DNA of 64,000 nt from an uncultured Selenomonadales bacterium (GCA_946407095.1 CAMJMR010000003.1:1-64000); one strand, 5' to 3'. Shown: positions 40,406 to 47,047, counted from the first letter of the stretch. Notes: a model not told the origin generated them from the letters alone. A program made the numbers and translations.

Positions 40406-40606
40406 TCATTCCTCCTTCGGCGTTTCGGGTTCTGCTAAATTTTTAATCATTAATTCTATCTGCTTGTCGTTTGGAATTCTAACGTCGTCTTTCTTTGAGT
40501 AAATCGAGAGCAAATAAATTTTTTCGTCGATGACAACGTAATAAATTATGCGAAAACCATTCGACTTCCCGCTTTTGGTTGAACTGTTGGCGGCGCGTAC
40601 TTTGTA
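40406..40606 (-). pseudogene. Truncated RelE/ParE-type toxin fragment
   Basis: Start-less reading frame YKVRAANSSTKSGKSNGFRIIYYVVIDEKIYLLSIYSKKDDVRIPNDKQIELMIKNLAEPETPKEE-stop. Confidence 0.7.
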
Positions 40607-40767
40607 TCAGTTGCATTTGCTTTCTCCTGCTCTATCAACGCATTCATTTCGGCGAAGAAGTCTTCCATTGTCGGCTCCGGCTGTCTGCCCGCGCGCATTT
40701 CGCGCACTTCTCTGCAAGCGTCGGCTATCGATTGCTCAACAGATATGTAACGTTCGTCCTTATCCAT
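40546..40767 (-). pseudogene. Antitoxin-like N-terminus joined out of frame to the toxin fragment
   Basis: MDKDERYISVEQSIADACREVREMRAGRQPEPTMEDFFAEMNALIEQEK, followed by residues that are the toxin DNA read in another frame. Confidence 0.55.
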
Positions 40768-40797: not shown

Positions 40798-41832
40798 TTA
40801 TCGGCGGGCATTCTTGTCGAAAACCTTTTGCAGCTCTTCGAAGGGTAAAACTTTCAAATGCGCCAGCTTGTTGCGGACTTCGCGATACATTTCCAAATCT
40901 TCGGCGTCGCGGTCGTCCAAAAGCCATCGTTTCTGCGTAAACAGCCCGTAAAGGTTGCCGATTTCCAATTCTTCGGGCGCGGAAGGGTAAGGCGGCGTGT
41001 TCTTTATCGTCATATCGTATTTCTTGATAAAGTTGCGGCGGAAGGTCTCGACCAGCGGGAAAACCAACTTTAACTGCGTCATCCAAATGGCGCGGTCAAT
41101 ATCCTCGGCGGTTTTGTGCGAAGTGAATCCGTCTTGGGCGGAAATATTTTCAAAGACGACGGCAGGGTTTTTCAAGAGCGTTTCGCCGCGCCGTATGCAA
41201 GCCGCTCCGAATTCGACATCGCCCTCGGTCAGCGCGGAAACAAGCTCGGCAAGGTACTGCTTCATGAGATGATTCGCCTTGCCGAACTCCGCCGCGATAA
41301 AAATAATGAACGCAAAGCTGTCGTAGTCGCTGATTCGCCGCGCGTAGGACATGACCTCAATGCCGGTCTTGCCGATTAAATGACATTCGCCTTGCCGCTC
41401 CAAAAGGAAGACGCCGCCGCGTTTGCCCGCCAAAAATCTGTGATAGTCGGCAATGAAGGCAAGCCACTGTTCGACCTGCGCGGGTTGGGCATTGCGAATC
41501 CAAATGCAGGAACTGTTCAGCGCAATGCCCGTGCGTTCCGCCAAAAATTTCGCGTAGGCTCCCTTGCTGTAGGGGCGGAAGCCGTCCTTGTTCTCGCAAA
41601 ACTCGTCGAAGACAAATTCTTGCGGGTCAGAAATATTTTCGGCGTCAACGATTTTGATACCCAATGTGCCGCTTTTGCGCAGCCGCTTTTCAAAAACCTC
41701 GCGCATCGTCTCAAGCCACGGAACGTGTTCGGGCAGACACAGCACGACGCTTTTGCCGTTCAAAAGGTGATTGGCCGCGTCGCGAATGAATCTGCTTGAG
41801 CCGTTTAGCTGTTCCCACCAAATTTTATCCAT
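40798..41832 (-). CDS. Partner protein of the giant ATPase, unknown function (345 aa)
   Basis: Start at MDKIWWEQLNGSS overlaps the stop of 41825-47047 by 8 nt; FIRDAANHLLNGKSVVLCLPEHVPWLETMREVF. Confidence 0.8.
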   Translation of the reverse strand: MDKIWWEQLNGSSRFIRDAANHLLNGKSVVLCLPEHVPWLETMREVFEKRLRKSGTLGIKIVDAENISDPQEFVFDEFCENKDGFRPYSKGAYAKFLAERTGIALNSSCIWIRNAQPAQVEQWLAFIADYHRFLAGKRGGVFLLERQGECHLIGKTGIEVMSYARRISDYDSFAFIIFIAAEFGKANHLMKQYLAELVSALTEGDVEFGAACIRRGETLLKNPAVVFENISAQDGFTSHKTAEDIDRAIWMTQLKLVFPLVETFRRNFIKKYDMTIKNTPPYPSAPEELEIGNLYGLFTQKRWLLDDRDAEDLEMYREVRNKLAHLKVLPFEELQKVFDKNARR

Positions 41833-44800
41833 TCTCGCCCTCCATGAGCTTGACGAGCGCGTCATCGACTTCGCCGCGCGTGCCGACTACGCGAAGAATC
41901 CTTTGCCGGGAAAAAAGATAGTTGCCCGCATTCGTCTTGCGCAAAATGTTCAGTTCGCAAAGTTCCTCCATGAGCGCGCCGATTTTTTCTTCGGAGGCGG
42001 GAAGAATTTCCTTGGCGACCAAATCGTAATCGTCGGCGGCTTTGAGGATATCGCGCGGCGAATAGCCTTCGACCTTGTTGACGTTGTAGTAAAGGTAGGC
42101 AAGCAGGTTGGCAATCGCGTGATAGTATTGGTCTCTGCCCAGGCCGAGCGTAATTTCGATTTTGGTCTTGATGTCCTTGGTGAATTCCTTATCGGCGAGA
42201 ACTTTCTTGATGTGGTCTTCGCTAATCGTGTAAATCGGCGTGTCGGCGTTGTAGCCCGCGTAGGACGTTTCAAAGAGAGCCTTGACGAGTTTTTCGCAGT
42301 AAAGCTGAATCAGACTTGGGAAGTAGTTCGCGCTTTCCAAAATCGTCAGAATCAGCGAATCTTTGTTGGTGTCGGGGAAGTACAAGCCCAGATAGCGGAG
42401 CGGCACTTCCAAAAGCTTGCGGGCGTCTTCGAGCCCGAACGGCTTAATCGTCAGCGACTTAAGCGTCGGCAGGATGTTGTTGTTGCTCAAAATTTTTTCG
42501 CGCTCAAAGCGGATGATGTTGCGCAAGCCCGCGATAACGAACTTGAAGCGGCTGCCGTTGTGATTGTCCTGCTGAATCTTGGCGAGCGCGGCAATCGGCG
42601 CGTAGTTGTCGTCCGCGCAGGATTCGATAAAGCCGTCCGCCTCGTCGAGCATGAGCAGGAAGTAAGGAATTTTCGTCGGCGTATCGCTTGCCAGACGGTT
42701 TTTGATGGCGCGCGTCAAATCTTCCCAGTTGTCGGTCTCAAAGGGCTCCGTGAAGAAATTTTTATCGCTAAGCTCTTGGCTGGTGAGGCGCGCGGCTTGC
42801 CGATAGTCTTTGTCGAGGATGTCGAGATAAATGGCGCGTTCGCCGTCGTGCCCGTCGATTTTCCTGCAAGCCATCTTCAAAAGCGCGGACTTGCCGAGTT
42901 GGCGGCCGCCGCAAACGATATTGACGCCGCCTTGCCCCGTGACTTCGTTTATTTCGGATTCGCGGCCGATGAACATTTCGGGAGGCAAGGGGACTTTCGG
43001 CGACCAGATGTAGGGTTGGCAGCGGGCGAACGGCATAATCAACGCCATGAGCGTATCGGTGATTCGTTTCGTGCCGAGCTGTTCCGCGCAGTTTTTGAAC
43101 AGATACATTATCGTCACTCTGTCGACGATAGCGAAAATTTTCGTCAAGCTTTTGTCGAGCTTAATTTCCTTGGCGAGGCGGCGGCGGGTCGGCAAATCGA
43201 GCGCCCAATCGAGGAAAACCAGCGTATGCCGGCTGTTGCCAATGTCCTTGAACTTGTCGATAAGATTTTTTTCGTCGTAGCGGCCGAACAGGCACGTCAC
43301 GCGGAAGCCGTCGACTTCGGCATCCGAGCCGAACGCCGCTATCGGGTGGCTGTATTTGATTTGACCCGAATCGACAATCCCGACGTGGAAATTTATCGTG
43401 TTGGCGGCGGACGAGGGAACTTTCTGCACGGTTTGAACGTCGAAGCCGAGCAACTTCAACAGCGCGGTGATTTTGTCTTCGCCGACGGGATTCGTTATCC
43501 AATTCTTCACGAGGTTGAGTTTGTTCTGCGAAACCTTGTTGTGGACGAAAATTTTCTTGGCGAGCAGATTTTCCAGCGAAGAGCCGCTGTCGTAAATTTT
43601 TTTGTAGCAGTCGTCGTAATCGGCAATGAAGCGGCTCAAGGCGTTGTCTTCGGCGTCGTCGAGTTTTTTGTACAGTTCGCCTTCGCTCAGCTTGAGAATC
43701 AGACTTTTGGCGACCGTGAAGTTTTTCGACGCGATAATCTGTTCAATTTCGTCGACGGCAGCCTTGAGTTCGTTGACGTCAAGATTTTGGGCAACCTGCT
43801 TGCAACTTTCAACGGCGGTCTGCAATTCGACGCGGAGGCTGTCGGCGTAGGCGGCGGCGTTCTTGTTGATGACGCCTTCCCAATGTTTAATGACGCGGAA
43901 GAAGACGCCGTAGTTTTTGCTTTCCTCCGCGTAGGCGTAGCAATTTTCGGCGAGCTGCAAAATTTTTTCCTTTTCGCCTTCGGGCATGACGTCGAATTGA
44001 CCGTAGCTCTGCGCGAGTTCGAGCCCGCCGATAAAACTTTCCTTGCGGCCGGGCGCGTCCTTGGCGGCACTGCTTATGCACTTTTTCAAGTCGTAATTCG
44101 CCTCAATGAAGGATTCGCCCTTGCAAGCCTTAAGGTAGTCGTCGAGCAGTTGCGCCGAGCCGAAATCGTCTCCGCCGTTTTCAAAAATCTGTTCGATACA
44201 CTTTTCGACCTTCGGCAACTTCGAGGCGGCGTGCTTTTGAATTTGTTCGAGGATGCCTGCCCGCGTGCCGTCCGAAATGTTCAAGTCGAGTTTCGGCAGA
44301 TAGTTTTCGTCGAGGATGACCTTATCGCCGCACAAAAATTTGATGTAGAAAAATTTATGGTCGAGCGGATTGAACGTGCCCTCCAGCCGCGCAGAAAGTT
44401 CTTCGAGCGTCTTGTCGACGACGCAAATGCCCGCCGAGGCAATGCCCTTGAAATTTTTGCGAGCGGCTTTGATATTGTCCAGCAGTTGCGAGCGAATTTT
44501 TTTGTAAGCTTCGGTGCCGCTGTCTTCGGTGTTTGCGCTGAAAATTTCCGCGCAGTTCGCCCACGCGCACATTATTTCAATAGCGCGCTCCAAAGTCTTG
44601 GTGATATTGTTTTTGAGTTCGCCCGTCAACTTGCCGGGATTTTTTTTGTCGCAAGCGTTGTCCCAATTTTCGGTTATGAACTGATTGAGCTTGTCTGCGT
44701 CGAGATTCACCGCGCTGAAACCCGCGTCCTCCCTGAGGAAATTCTCCGTCAAATACGTTTCGACGATGCCCAGCGTGTCGGCGGACGTGACTTCGTTCTT

Positions 44801-47047
44801 ATCCTTCATTGCGCGGAAAATTTGTCCCAAGTCGCCGTTCTGCGCGAAGATGATTTTCTTCATCCTTATGAACGCTTCGTTGTAAGCCTTGTCGGTCTGG
44901 TGCCCTTCAAAGTAGAGCGTGTAATAATCCTCCGCCGCTTGAATGACTTTGGTAAGATTTTTTTCGGCGGCGGCCTTGTCCTTCGTGCGGTAGTCGGCGT
45001 AGTAGTCGATGCCCCGTTGCATGTTAATCTTGAAGATTTTCAAGTCGTCAATCAGTTCGGCAAGCGGGGGATTGGAACGGACGACGACGAAATTTTTTAT
45101 AAGGACGCTGAGCGCGGGCACGCCGTAATCCCTGCTGAAGTCGTTGTAGAACAGCGCGCGCAAGGCGGCCGCCGTTATCAAAGCCTCGTTGAAGGCGTTA
45201 TCGTCCTCCGAGGACAGGTACGAAATGGAATCTGCGCGGTAGCCCTCATTGAGCAGCGGGTCGTCGAGCGCGAACGCCAATTGCCGATACAGCGGCTCCA
45301 AGTCTTCGCGCTCCAAGCTGACGGCTTTAAGGTAAGCGGTCGCGCAGTAGAATTTTTTATCCAGCAACATTTTGCGGACGACAGGCCAAAATTCTTCGTC
45401 GTTGCCCGCGTCTGACAAAAATTCTTCGGGCGGCTCCGCGTCTTCAATTTCCTCCGGCGCGTCCTGTTCGTCGACGGGTTCGGTGTCGTCGTCGTCAACG
45501 GGCGGCTCTTCGTCGGTCGAGTCGTCGTCAATTTCGTCAACGGGCGGCTCTTCGTCGTCAAAGTCGTCATCTTCGACGGGCGTGAAAAATTCTTCGGGCG
45601 AAATGGTTTCCTCCGTGCCTTCCAAGTAAAAAACGTCGTCGGCCGCCGAATAGAAGTAAACGTCGACGTAGGTCGGAATTTCCTCCGCCAAAACCGTTTT
45701 GAGCGCGGTGAAAACCCTTTCGGCGTGACCGAGCGTCAAACCCGCCACAATCACGCGGTCGAAGCCTCTGGTCATTTCGCTCAAGTACTGCCGCAACTTT
45801 TTCAGGAACTTGTCGCATTCGTCGAAGTCATCCCAGAAACAGCCGAGCATCAAGACGCGCTCATCGCCGACACGGAATTTTTCTCTGAAGGCTTGCGCAT
45901 AAAAATCGACGGCAACGAAATTTTTATCGGACTCCTTTTCGTAGGCGTTGAGCCGGAAGTAAATCGCGCGCGTCAAAGCAATTCGCGCATCCTCCGCCAG
46001 ATAGTTCGTGACGGCGGGGAAGCCCTTGTGCCCTTTGGTTATCGAATTGATGAATTTTTTGCCGCCGTCGCTGCGCATGAAGTCGGAAAACTTTTTCGTC
46101 ATGCCGTAGAAGCCGCCGAGGTCTCCGAAGGTAAATTTTTGCAAGTAGCCTTTGTTAAGCAGGAACTGCGCGGCGTTTTCAAATTCTTCAGGCGTGAACT
46201 TTTTGGGCGGCGTGACCGAAAACGCAACGCAACTGCGCGAGGCCGCCATCAAAAGCAACGGCTGCAGAGAACCCGTGTCGCCGAATTCCGCCTTGAAACG
46301 CTTGGCGGAAAATTCTTTGTCGCGGTCTCTTTTGTCGACGGAAAAACTTTCTTCCCACGGCGCAAAATCTTCGTCGGACAGGAGGGCATTGCTTTCGCGC
46401 AGGGCTTTGACGAAATCGCTTTCGGCGGGCTCTTCCGGAACAATTTCTTTAACCTCCGTCGCCGCCGCCTCTTCGACGGGCTCATTCGTGCTGTGAATCA
46501 ATTCTCCGTCGAAAAGCCCCGCTCCGATAAAATCTGCGCTGAAGAAATTCAACAGCTCTTGAGTCGCCGAAATTTTCGCGCCCGTAGTCGGCGCATTCAT
46601 TGCGTCGATAAATTTTGCGTAAGGCTCGGCGGCATTCTCGTTGAAGTTCTTCTTGCCGAACAATGCCTGCAATTTTTTCAGATGCCGCGTCAATTCCTTT
46701 TGATATTCGGGATTGTCGGTGACCAAATCCAAAAACTTCCGTGCGCGTCCGAAAACGCTCGTCTCCAGAATTTTGACTTCCGCCTCGTGTAAAAGCCGCT
46801 CCATTTCCCCGAAACTTTCGGGCGGCGGCTCCTGTAGCACTTCGCCGTACAAACCGTAACATGATTTCTGCTCCGCTATCAGCCGCGTCAAAAAGTCTCG
46901 CGTCGCGTTTAATCGCCCGAAGTTCAAAAATTTTTCCTCGTCGATGTCTTCGGTCAGCAATGAAAAATTTTCTTTGACAAATGCGCCGATTGTTCGCAAT
47001 TCGTTCAGCGTCTCGCGGATGTCGTTGATTGTCTTCAGTCGTTCCAT
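41825..47047 (-). CDS. Giant multidomain P-loop ATPase (1740 aa), candidate defence/conflict NTPase
   Basis: Walker A GGRQLGKSALL after MFIGRESEI; Walker B YFLLMLDEADGF; acidic low-complexity linker; long N-terminal region; C-terminal winged-helix-like region. Confidence 0.88.
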   Translation of the reverse strand: MERLKTINDIRETLNELRTIGAFVKENFSLLTEDIDEEKFLNFGRLNATRDFLTRLIAEQKSCYGLYGEVLQEPPPESFGEMERLLHEAEVKILETSVFGRARKFLDLVTDNPEYQKELTRHLKKLQALFGKKNFNENAAEPYAKFIDAMNAPTTGAKISATQELLNFFSADFIGAGLFDGELIHSTNEPVEEAAATEVKEIVPEEPAESDFVKALRESNALLSDEDFAPWEESFSVDKRDRDKEFSAKRFKAEFGDTGSLQPLLLMAASRSCVAFSVTPPKKFTPEEFENAAQFLLNKGYLQKFTFGDLGGFYGMTKKFSDFMRSDGGKKFINSITKGHKGFPAVTNYLAEDARIALTRAIYFRLNAYEKESDKNFVAVDFYAQAFREKFRVGDERVLMLGCFWDDFDECDKFLKKLRQYLSEMTRGFDRVIVAGLTLGHAERVFTALKTVLAEEIPTYVDVYFYSAADDVFYLEGTEETISPEEFFTPVEDDDFDDEEPPVDEIDDDSTDEEPPVDDDDTEPVDEQDAPEEIEDAEPPEEFLSDAGNDEEFWPVVRKMLLDKKFYCATAYLKAVSLEREDLEPLYRQLAFALDDPLLNEGYRADSISYLSSEDDNAFNEALITAAALRALFYNDFSRDYGVPALSVLIKNFVVVRSNPPLAELIDDLKIFKINMQRGIDYYADYRTKDKAAAEKNLTKVIQAAEDYYTLYFEGHQTDKAYNEAFIRMKKIIFAQNGDLGQIFRAMKDKNEVTSADTLGIVETYLTENFLREDAGFSAVNLDADKLNQFITENWDNACDKKNPGKLTGELKNNITKTLERAIEIMCAWANCAEIFSANTEDSGTEAYKKIRSQLLDNIKAARKNFKGIASAGICVVDKTLEELSARLEGTFNPLDHKFFYIKFLCGDKVILDENYLPKLDLNISDGTRAGILEQIQKHAASKLPKVEKCIEQIFENGGDDFGSAQLLDDYLKACKGESFIEANYDLKKCISSAAKDAPGRKESFIGGLELAQSYGQFDVMPEGEKEKILQLAENCYAYAEESKNYGVFFRVIKHWEGVINKNAAAYADSLRVELQTAVESCKQVAQNLDVNELKAAVDEIEQIIASKNFTVAKSLILKLSEGELYKKLDDAEDNALSRFIADYDDCYKKIYDSGSSLENLLAKKIFVHNKVSQNKLNLVKNWITNPVGEDKITALLKLLGFDVQTVQKVPSSAANTINFHVGIVDSGQIKYSHPIAAFGSDAEVDGFRVTCLFGRYDEKNLIDKFKDIGNSRHTLVFLDWALDLPTRRRLAKEIKLDKSLTKIFAIVDRVTIMYLFKNCAEQLGTKRITDTLMALIMPFARCQPYIWSPKVPLPPEMFIGRESEINEVTGQGGVNIVCGGRQLGKSALLKMACRKIDGHDGERAIYLDILDKDYRQAARLTSQELSDKNFFTEPFETDNWEDLTRAIKNRLASDTPTKIPYFLLMLDEADGFIESCADDNYAPIAALAKIQQDNHNGSRFKFVIAGLRNIIRFEREKILSNNNILPTLKSLTIKPFGLEDARKLLEVPLRYLGLYFPDTNKDSLILTILESANYFPSLIQLYCEKLVKALFETSYAGYNADTPIYTISEDHIKKVLADKEFTKDIKTKIEITLGLGRDQYYHAIANLLAYLYYNVNKVEGYSPRDILKAADDYDLVAKEILPASEEKIGALMEELCELNILRKTNAGNYLFSRQRILRVVGTRGEVDDALVKLMEGENG

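Follow-up and report, generated by a model that had tools for sequence, protein, structure and literature searches.

In the window, a 64,000-nucleotide stretch of DNA from an uncultured Selenomonadales bacterium, two overlapping genes at positions 40798-47047 of the minus strand encode a giant ATPase and a smaller partner with a predicted HEPN-type RNase domain, and the pair is probably a two-component, nucleoside triphosphate (NTP)-switched conflict module of the immunity or abortive-infection type. The computational observations that bear on this reading comprise gene pairing, co-retention, ATPase motifs, ORC/STAND-like folds, a HEPN-type motif with profile similarity, selection, and conflict-linked relatives. 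The two genes and the parts of their proteins are arranged as follows.

41825..47047, minus strand: large protein, 1740 amino acids (aa), predicted ORC/STAND-clade ATPase, proposed sensor/switch
45593..47047, minus strand: large protein residues 1-485, fast-evolving N-terminal region (from identity and pN/pS)
45410..45574 (~45.4-45.6 kb), minus strand: acidic linker of the large protein, approximately residues 492-546
43508..45427, minus strand: large protein residues 541-1180, all-helical, repeat-like region (from the structure model and Pfam)
43028..43507, minus strand: large protein residues 1181-1340, alpha/beta domain ahead of the P-loop (from the model and conservation)
42128..43027, minus strand: large protein residues 1341-1640, AAA+ core and lid, ORC/Cdc6-like
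41828..42127, minus strand: large protein residues 1641-1740, C-terminal winged-helix-like region (from the model)
42878-42910, minus strand: Walker A GGRQLGKSALL, residues 1380-1390
42629-42664, minus strand: Walker B FLLMLDEADGF, approximately residues 1463-1473
40798..41832, minus strand: partner, 344 aa (355 aa from an in-frame upstream ATG at 41865)
41113..41832, minus strand: partner residues 1-240, inactive STAND-like alpha/beta fold of AAA+/ORC-like type that lacks Walker A and has an invariant WW at its start
40801..41112, minus strand: partner residues 241-344, predicted HEPN-type helical domain with invariant E262 and R265 (E273 and R276 when the 355-aa form is numbered)
40858-40875, minus strand: RNKLAH motif of the HEPN-type domain

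According to the proposed mechanism, the fast-evolving N-terminal and helical-repeat regions of the large protein would sense a cue of invasion or stress, whereupon the ORC/STAND AAA+ core would bind or hydrolyse NTP and assemble. The assembly would probably involve the AAA+-like, Walker-less N-terminal domain of the partner as a docking part and would bring the C-terminal HEPN domains of the partners together. HEPN RNases are usually active when their HEPN domains are brought together, and the clustered domains would then cleave RNA and growth would stop. The partner's C-terminal HEPN domain is the likely effector, while the cue or ligand, the formation of a complex, the RNase activity and the outcome in phage defence are the steps that we infer. 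The sensor/effector logic had been put forward in a first-pass annotation of the window and is supported here, with the effector placed in a domain which that annotation had not recognised.

The stop of the ATPase gene and the start of the partner gene share 8 nt (ATGGATAA), and the same overlap is found in the close homologues L049, L051, L053 and L054; the translational coupling that the first-pass annotation read from this overlap is supported, while its partner length of 345 aa was off by one, the gene encoding 344 aa from the ATG at 41832, just upstream of which lies a purine-rich stretch. Related loci numbered 79 in a scan of species genomes and came from Selenomonadaceae, Lachnospiraceae, Ruminococcaceae/Oscillospiraceae, Brevibacillus and Cohnella; 73 of them possess a partner homologue, directly adjoining the large gene in 72; in L120 another gene is inserted between the two. 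The six loci without a partner include three at a contig edge (L075, L078, L117) and three with none nearby (L115, L121, L124), and in the genome to which L115 appears to belong (G028) the partner is on a different contig, as are the two genes from each other in G009. Each gene occurs in 29 of the 61 related genomes. Of the four co-occurrence mismatches, two are ATPases truncated where their contig ends (G013, G023) and one is a partner located at the beginning of its contig (G010); in the fourth, G003, the large protein is shortened to 1199 aa and lacks both P-loop and Walker B (L155, 5332-8931), and an intact partner follows with a 4-nt overlap. Thus, the check on consistent pairing across genomes turned out in favour of the proposal, and the retention of the partner where the two genes are unlinked argues for functional dependence, with the draft state of the assemblies as a caution.

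The open reading frame (ORF) of the large protein is intact and a real coding frame, and the Walker motifs and the acidic linker were confirmed at the places first reported for them, the linker running from residue 492. Across the aligned ATPase family GGRQLGK and DE-x-D are invariant, and R1513 in the AAA+ part is nearly so. Comparison with three relatives (non-synonymous pN ~0.25, synonymous pS 0.61-0.71) indicates purifying selection on the gene, whose N-terminal residues 1-485 have 31-43% identity to clade relatives versus 51-71% from residue 1201 onward, with a non-synonymous rate ~4 times higher in the first 545 residues than in the last 560. Pfam returned only weak matches to AAA_14, ATPase_2 and AAA_22, which recur in 20/26, 16/26 and 14/26 family members, respectively, and some homologues match TPR models over the helical region 541-1180. 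The structure model of residues 541-1740 (mean pLDDT 85.4) gives the order of a long helical region, the alpha/beta domain 1181-1340, the AAA+ core and a winged-helix-like end; among solved structures it most resembles archaeal ORC2, eukaryotic ORC/Cdc6 and clamp loaders, which places the large protein, by modelled fold, in the ORC/STAND clade, in agreement with the initial call of a STAND/ORC-like ATPase. A profile-based sequence search of the PDB gave nothing meaningful, and no match was found in the phage genomes searched. The possibility of a housekeeping ATPase, named by the first-pass annotation as counting against its proposal, was rejected, since NCBIfam and Pfam give no equivalog. The segment just before the P-loop, which had been suggested as an added effector, belongs instead to the conserved core that nearly all homologues share, and neither a Pfam match nor a catalytic motif was recognised in it; judged from strand topology alone, this modelled alpha/beta domain may be a catalytically dead or degenerate restriction endonuclease (REase)-like fold. 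The plus-strand ORF at 41771-45415 was rejected as a gene, being an antisense shadow.

The partner gene is likewise intact and under purifying selection (pN 0.18-0.20, pS 0.49-0.72 versus three relatives). The best PDB matches of its structure model (pLDDT 95.3) are RFC, ORC and Apaf-1, with low whole-chain TM-scores of 0.3-0.4, as would be expected if the match is limited to the N-terminal AAA+ part. The partner lacks Walker A, the pattern GxxxxGK[ST] being present within the first 120 aa in only one of 69 partner homologues, and among the same 69 no invariant arginine was seen in the AAA+ part. No sequence homology between this part and the ATPase core was detected by hhalign, so that the relation of the two proteins is one of fold. 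At the C-terminus, which is helical in the model, R-N-x3-H, which conforms to the R-x4-6-H motif of the HEPN superfamily, is present within the last ~100 residues of all 69 homologues, most of them at 20-50% identity, and is preceded by a long helix with an invariant E and R. The hhalign score of the partner profile against the Swt1-type HEPN family (HEPN_Swt1) is 29.8, the best of 200 column-shuffled controls reaching 18.6. No Pfam HEPN model exceeded its cut-off and the window's partner has no Pfam HEPN match at all, while sub-threshold matches to HEPN_Swt1, in one case to a HepT-like model, are correctly placed on distant partners from Salinibacter, Thiodictyon and a viral contig. From motif conservation, these sub-threshold matches and the profile score, the domain is called HEPN-type and a predicted RNase, with good but not final confidence.

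The first-pass annotation regarded the module as undescribed, a claim that does not stand, as the architecture of an active STAND protein with an inactive STAND-HEPN partner has already been predicted by Kaur, Iyer, Burroughs and Aravind (eLife 2021, PMC8195603; GT4-domain section, Fig. 6C). The mobile two-gene nSTAND2 operon described there, a predicted counter-invader system, encodes two STAND modules; in one of them the NTP-binding motifs are eroded, and its commonest fusion partners are GT4 and HEPN. The pair shares with it the adjacent arrangement in an operon (8-nt overlap, 72/79 loci), one active STAND NTPase with Walker A and B, a second protein that appears to be an eroded STAND/AAA+ module (AAA+/ORC/Apaf-1 fold) fused to HEPN, and mobility in relatives (plasmids, viral contig). 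However, the pair of the window's genus is chromosomal and syntenic, its N-terminus is very large and fast-evolving, and no GT4 version was seen; both proteins of the nSTAND2 operon have an arginine finger, whereas here R1513 is nearly invariant in the large protein and no invariant arginine was seen in the AAA+ part of the partner. The pair thus fits the main features of that operon, as judged by the described architecture; no nSTAND2-named model was among the Pfam matches. New here are the Bacillota lineage with its fast-evolving giant N-terminus, a DrmE_C variant and, apparently, a PIWI fusion. A literature word search, with most subscription journals outside its coverage, found no experimental test of the nSTAND2 operon; if the conflict-module reading is true, this predicted class of immune switch is represented by a tractable pair of genes, which most of the species sampled from a rumen genus have kept. 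The pairing of active and inactive STAND AAA+ modules in control of a HEPN RNase would be an architecture reminiscent of apoptosome-type assemblies.

Other described systems resemble the pair in part. The DUF499/HmaC proteins of the Type-1 BREX-related Hma systems combine an ORC/STAND AAA+ ATPase with a Swt1-type HEPN (PMC3710099, PMC12839542), but there the HEPN is fused to the ATPase N-terminus and accompanied by methylase and helicase genes, whereas here it is on a separate protein and neither gene is present. As an observation apart, the window's own genome encodes elsewhere (G000:C11:10310-10651, L150) a separate open frame of 1188 aa, the size of such proteins, in which a Swt1-type HEPN is clear (E 3e-22); it is probably an ATPase of this DUF499/Hma type. 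In BrxB/BrxF and the iSTAND inactive STAND proteins (PMC12839542, PMC7159879) a Walker-less ORC/STAND fold likewise stands alongside an active ATPase, but the window pair has no PglZ, methylase, MoxR or vWA genes, and its inactive domain bears the HEPN. Membership in a known defence system (Avs, BREX and others) was rejected, as PADLOC gave only weak matches, chiefly PDC-S01 over the P-loop, with no Avs match. Avs-type proteins are large STAND NTPases with a repeat-like sensor region and with effectors fused to the ATPase N-terminus; the likeness consists in the large STAND NTPase with its repeat-like region, the difference in the position of the effector.

Relatives in distant taxa were found by tblastn of the ATPase core in 24 plasmid records of Cyanobacteria, Rhodothermota, Actinomycetota and Pseudomonadota. 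A plasmid of Azospirillum encodes the core as the rear part of a fusion with a pPIWI_RE protein (PF13032 4e-30, with PF13111 and PF18157), inside a pPIWI_RE island whose REase/Y and Z genes were also recognised; at L129 (4693-14463) the pPIWI_RE and ORC/STAND-core fusion has 3256 aa, and the next gene combines a HEPN-partner region with an AAA_33 domain. Microvirga (L143) and Bradyrhizobium (L136) share this gene order and its annotations, the next gene again bearing AAA_33. The three-gene pPIWI_RE island was described in 2013 (PMC3702460), where neither a STAND NTPase nor a HEPN component is mentioned, and so the fusion may be unreported, the literature search having left most subscription journals outside; the Azospirillum arrangement of STAND core and following HEPN-partner-like gene is the likeness to the window, which itself, unlike these islands, has no PIWI. 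A Ti plasmid of Agrobacterium has a WYL gene, a large gene and a second gene weakly matching AAA_33, flanked by RelBE on one side and by a CBASS-like set on the other; the CBASS-like genes (Prok-E2, ThiF and JAB in one protein; a patatin phospholipase) follow right after the STAND pair (L137, 12150-16658). A contig of a viral collection (L128) has the pair, including the motif RNALAH, a few genes from gene transfer agent (GTA)/phage-tail and NlpC/P60 genes. In Burkholderia and Cupriavidus, the HEPN partner is replaced by an overlapping second gene of 920-930 aa with the DISARM domain DrmE_C (L141, 10376-13144, and L142, 10451-13252, each with a 4-nt overlap with the ATPase gene). A GT4 version of the partner was not found, and a plasmid search from one distant partner returned only itself. 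The relatives are thus on plasmids and a viral contig, the host-genus copies being syntenic and chromosomal, and they tie the module to PIWI, DISARM-like and CBASS-bearing loci. It may tentatively be suggested, at less than even chances, that the ORC/STAND core and the inactive-STAND-HEPN partner are a portable signalling cassette for varied immune sensors and effectors, such as the giant protein in Bacillota, pPIWI_RE in Azospirillum and related plasmids, and DrmE_C; in that case, an RNase suicide switch would be coupled to the recognition of invaders by PIWI.

The genome of the window is of a rumen-type Selenomonadaceae, with Selenomonadaceae and Quinella metagenome-assembled genomes as the closest named records, and several observations weigh against the conflict-module reading. 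In the host genus the pair is at fixed chromosomal sites amid housekeeping genes; 30 of 37 genomes of the genus, many of them incomplete, have one or the other gene; the flanks in Bacillota are mostly ordinary metabolic genes with few defence-model matches; and HEPN homology is borderline in any single sequence test. The enrichment near defence genes, the lack of which had been named at the outset as counting against the proposal, divides: the Bacillota flanks have no clear enrichment, while distant relatives are beside CBASS and in pPIWI_RE islands. The fixed sites, frequent presence and few defence flanks make a chromosomal regulatory role possible, and the main rival explanation, an unlikely one on balance, is a chromosomal stress or translation-control module in which ATPase and HEPN would regulate host RNA turnover on internal stress, with no anti-invader role; the synteny and near-universal presence within the genus and the strong purifying selection are consistent with it. 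However, the distribution above the genus is patchy, with four strong matches besides the window's own among 300 genomes of the phylum, two separate versions exist in Selenomonadaceae, the N-terminus evolves fast, and the relatives found on plasmids, on a viral contig, next to CBASS-like genes and within pPIWI_RE islands also speak against it.

Coupled translation, the frequent use of HEPN domains as toxins (PMC3710099) and a decayed RelE-type toxin-antitoxin locus next door would suit a narrow toxin-antitoxin pair, in which the HEPN partner is a constitutive toxin restrained by the large protein. This is improbable, as an ATPase of 1740 aa whose Walker motifs are conserved across the aligned homologues is unlike an antitoxin, and the intact partner of G003 beside a large gene without P-loop is hard to explain for a constitutive toxin, though the remnant might still inhibit. 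Slightly more improbable still is nucleic-acid-guided or replication-linked restriction, by which both ORC-like proteins would bind invader nucleic acid and the complex would degrade the invader and not host RNA; the ORC/clamp-loader-like folds, the pPIWI_RE fusion in Azospirillum and the possible dead REase-like domain point that way, but the HEPN RNase motif is the sole conserved catalytic motif found besides the ATPase, and no active DNase motif was found.

A quick tree of the ATPase core, in which long branches leave the deep joins unsure, puts the sampled Selenomonadaceae in separate clades, one amid Lachnospiraceae-rich sequences and including the window, the other beside Paenibacillaceae. 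The former adjoins a branched-chain amino-acid transporter cluster, and some members of the latter share a different conserved site; at least two entries into the group are therefore probable, after which the system stayed in place. Between the partner and the CBS-ACT gene of the window lies decayed toxin-antitoxin DNA (40436-40767, minus strand), where its presence had been noted at the outset:

40588-40767, minus strand: antitoxin-like ORF (remnant)
40436-40603, minus strand: RelE-like fragment (remnant)

An intact RelE-like ORF of 121 aa is present at the same site in L051 (Pfam RelE E=0.0015, below cut-off), and another is intact in L053 at the site of the window's RelE-like remnant.

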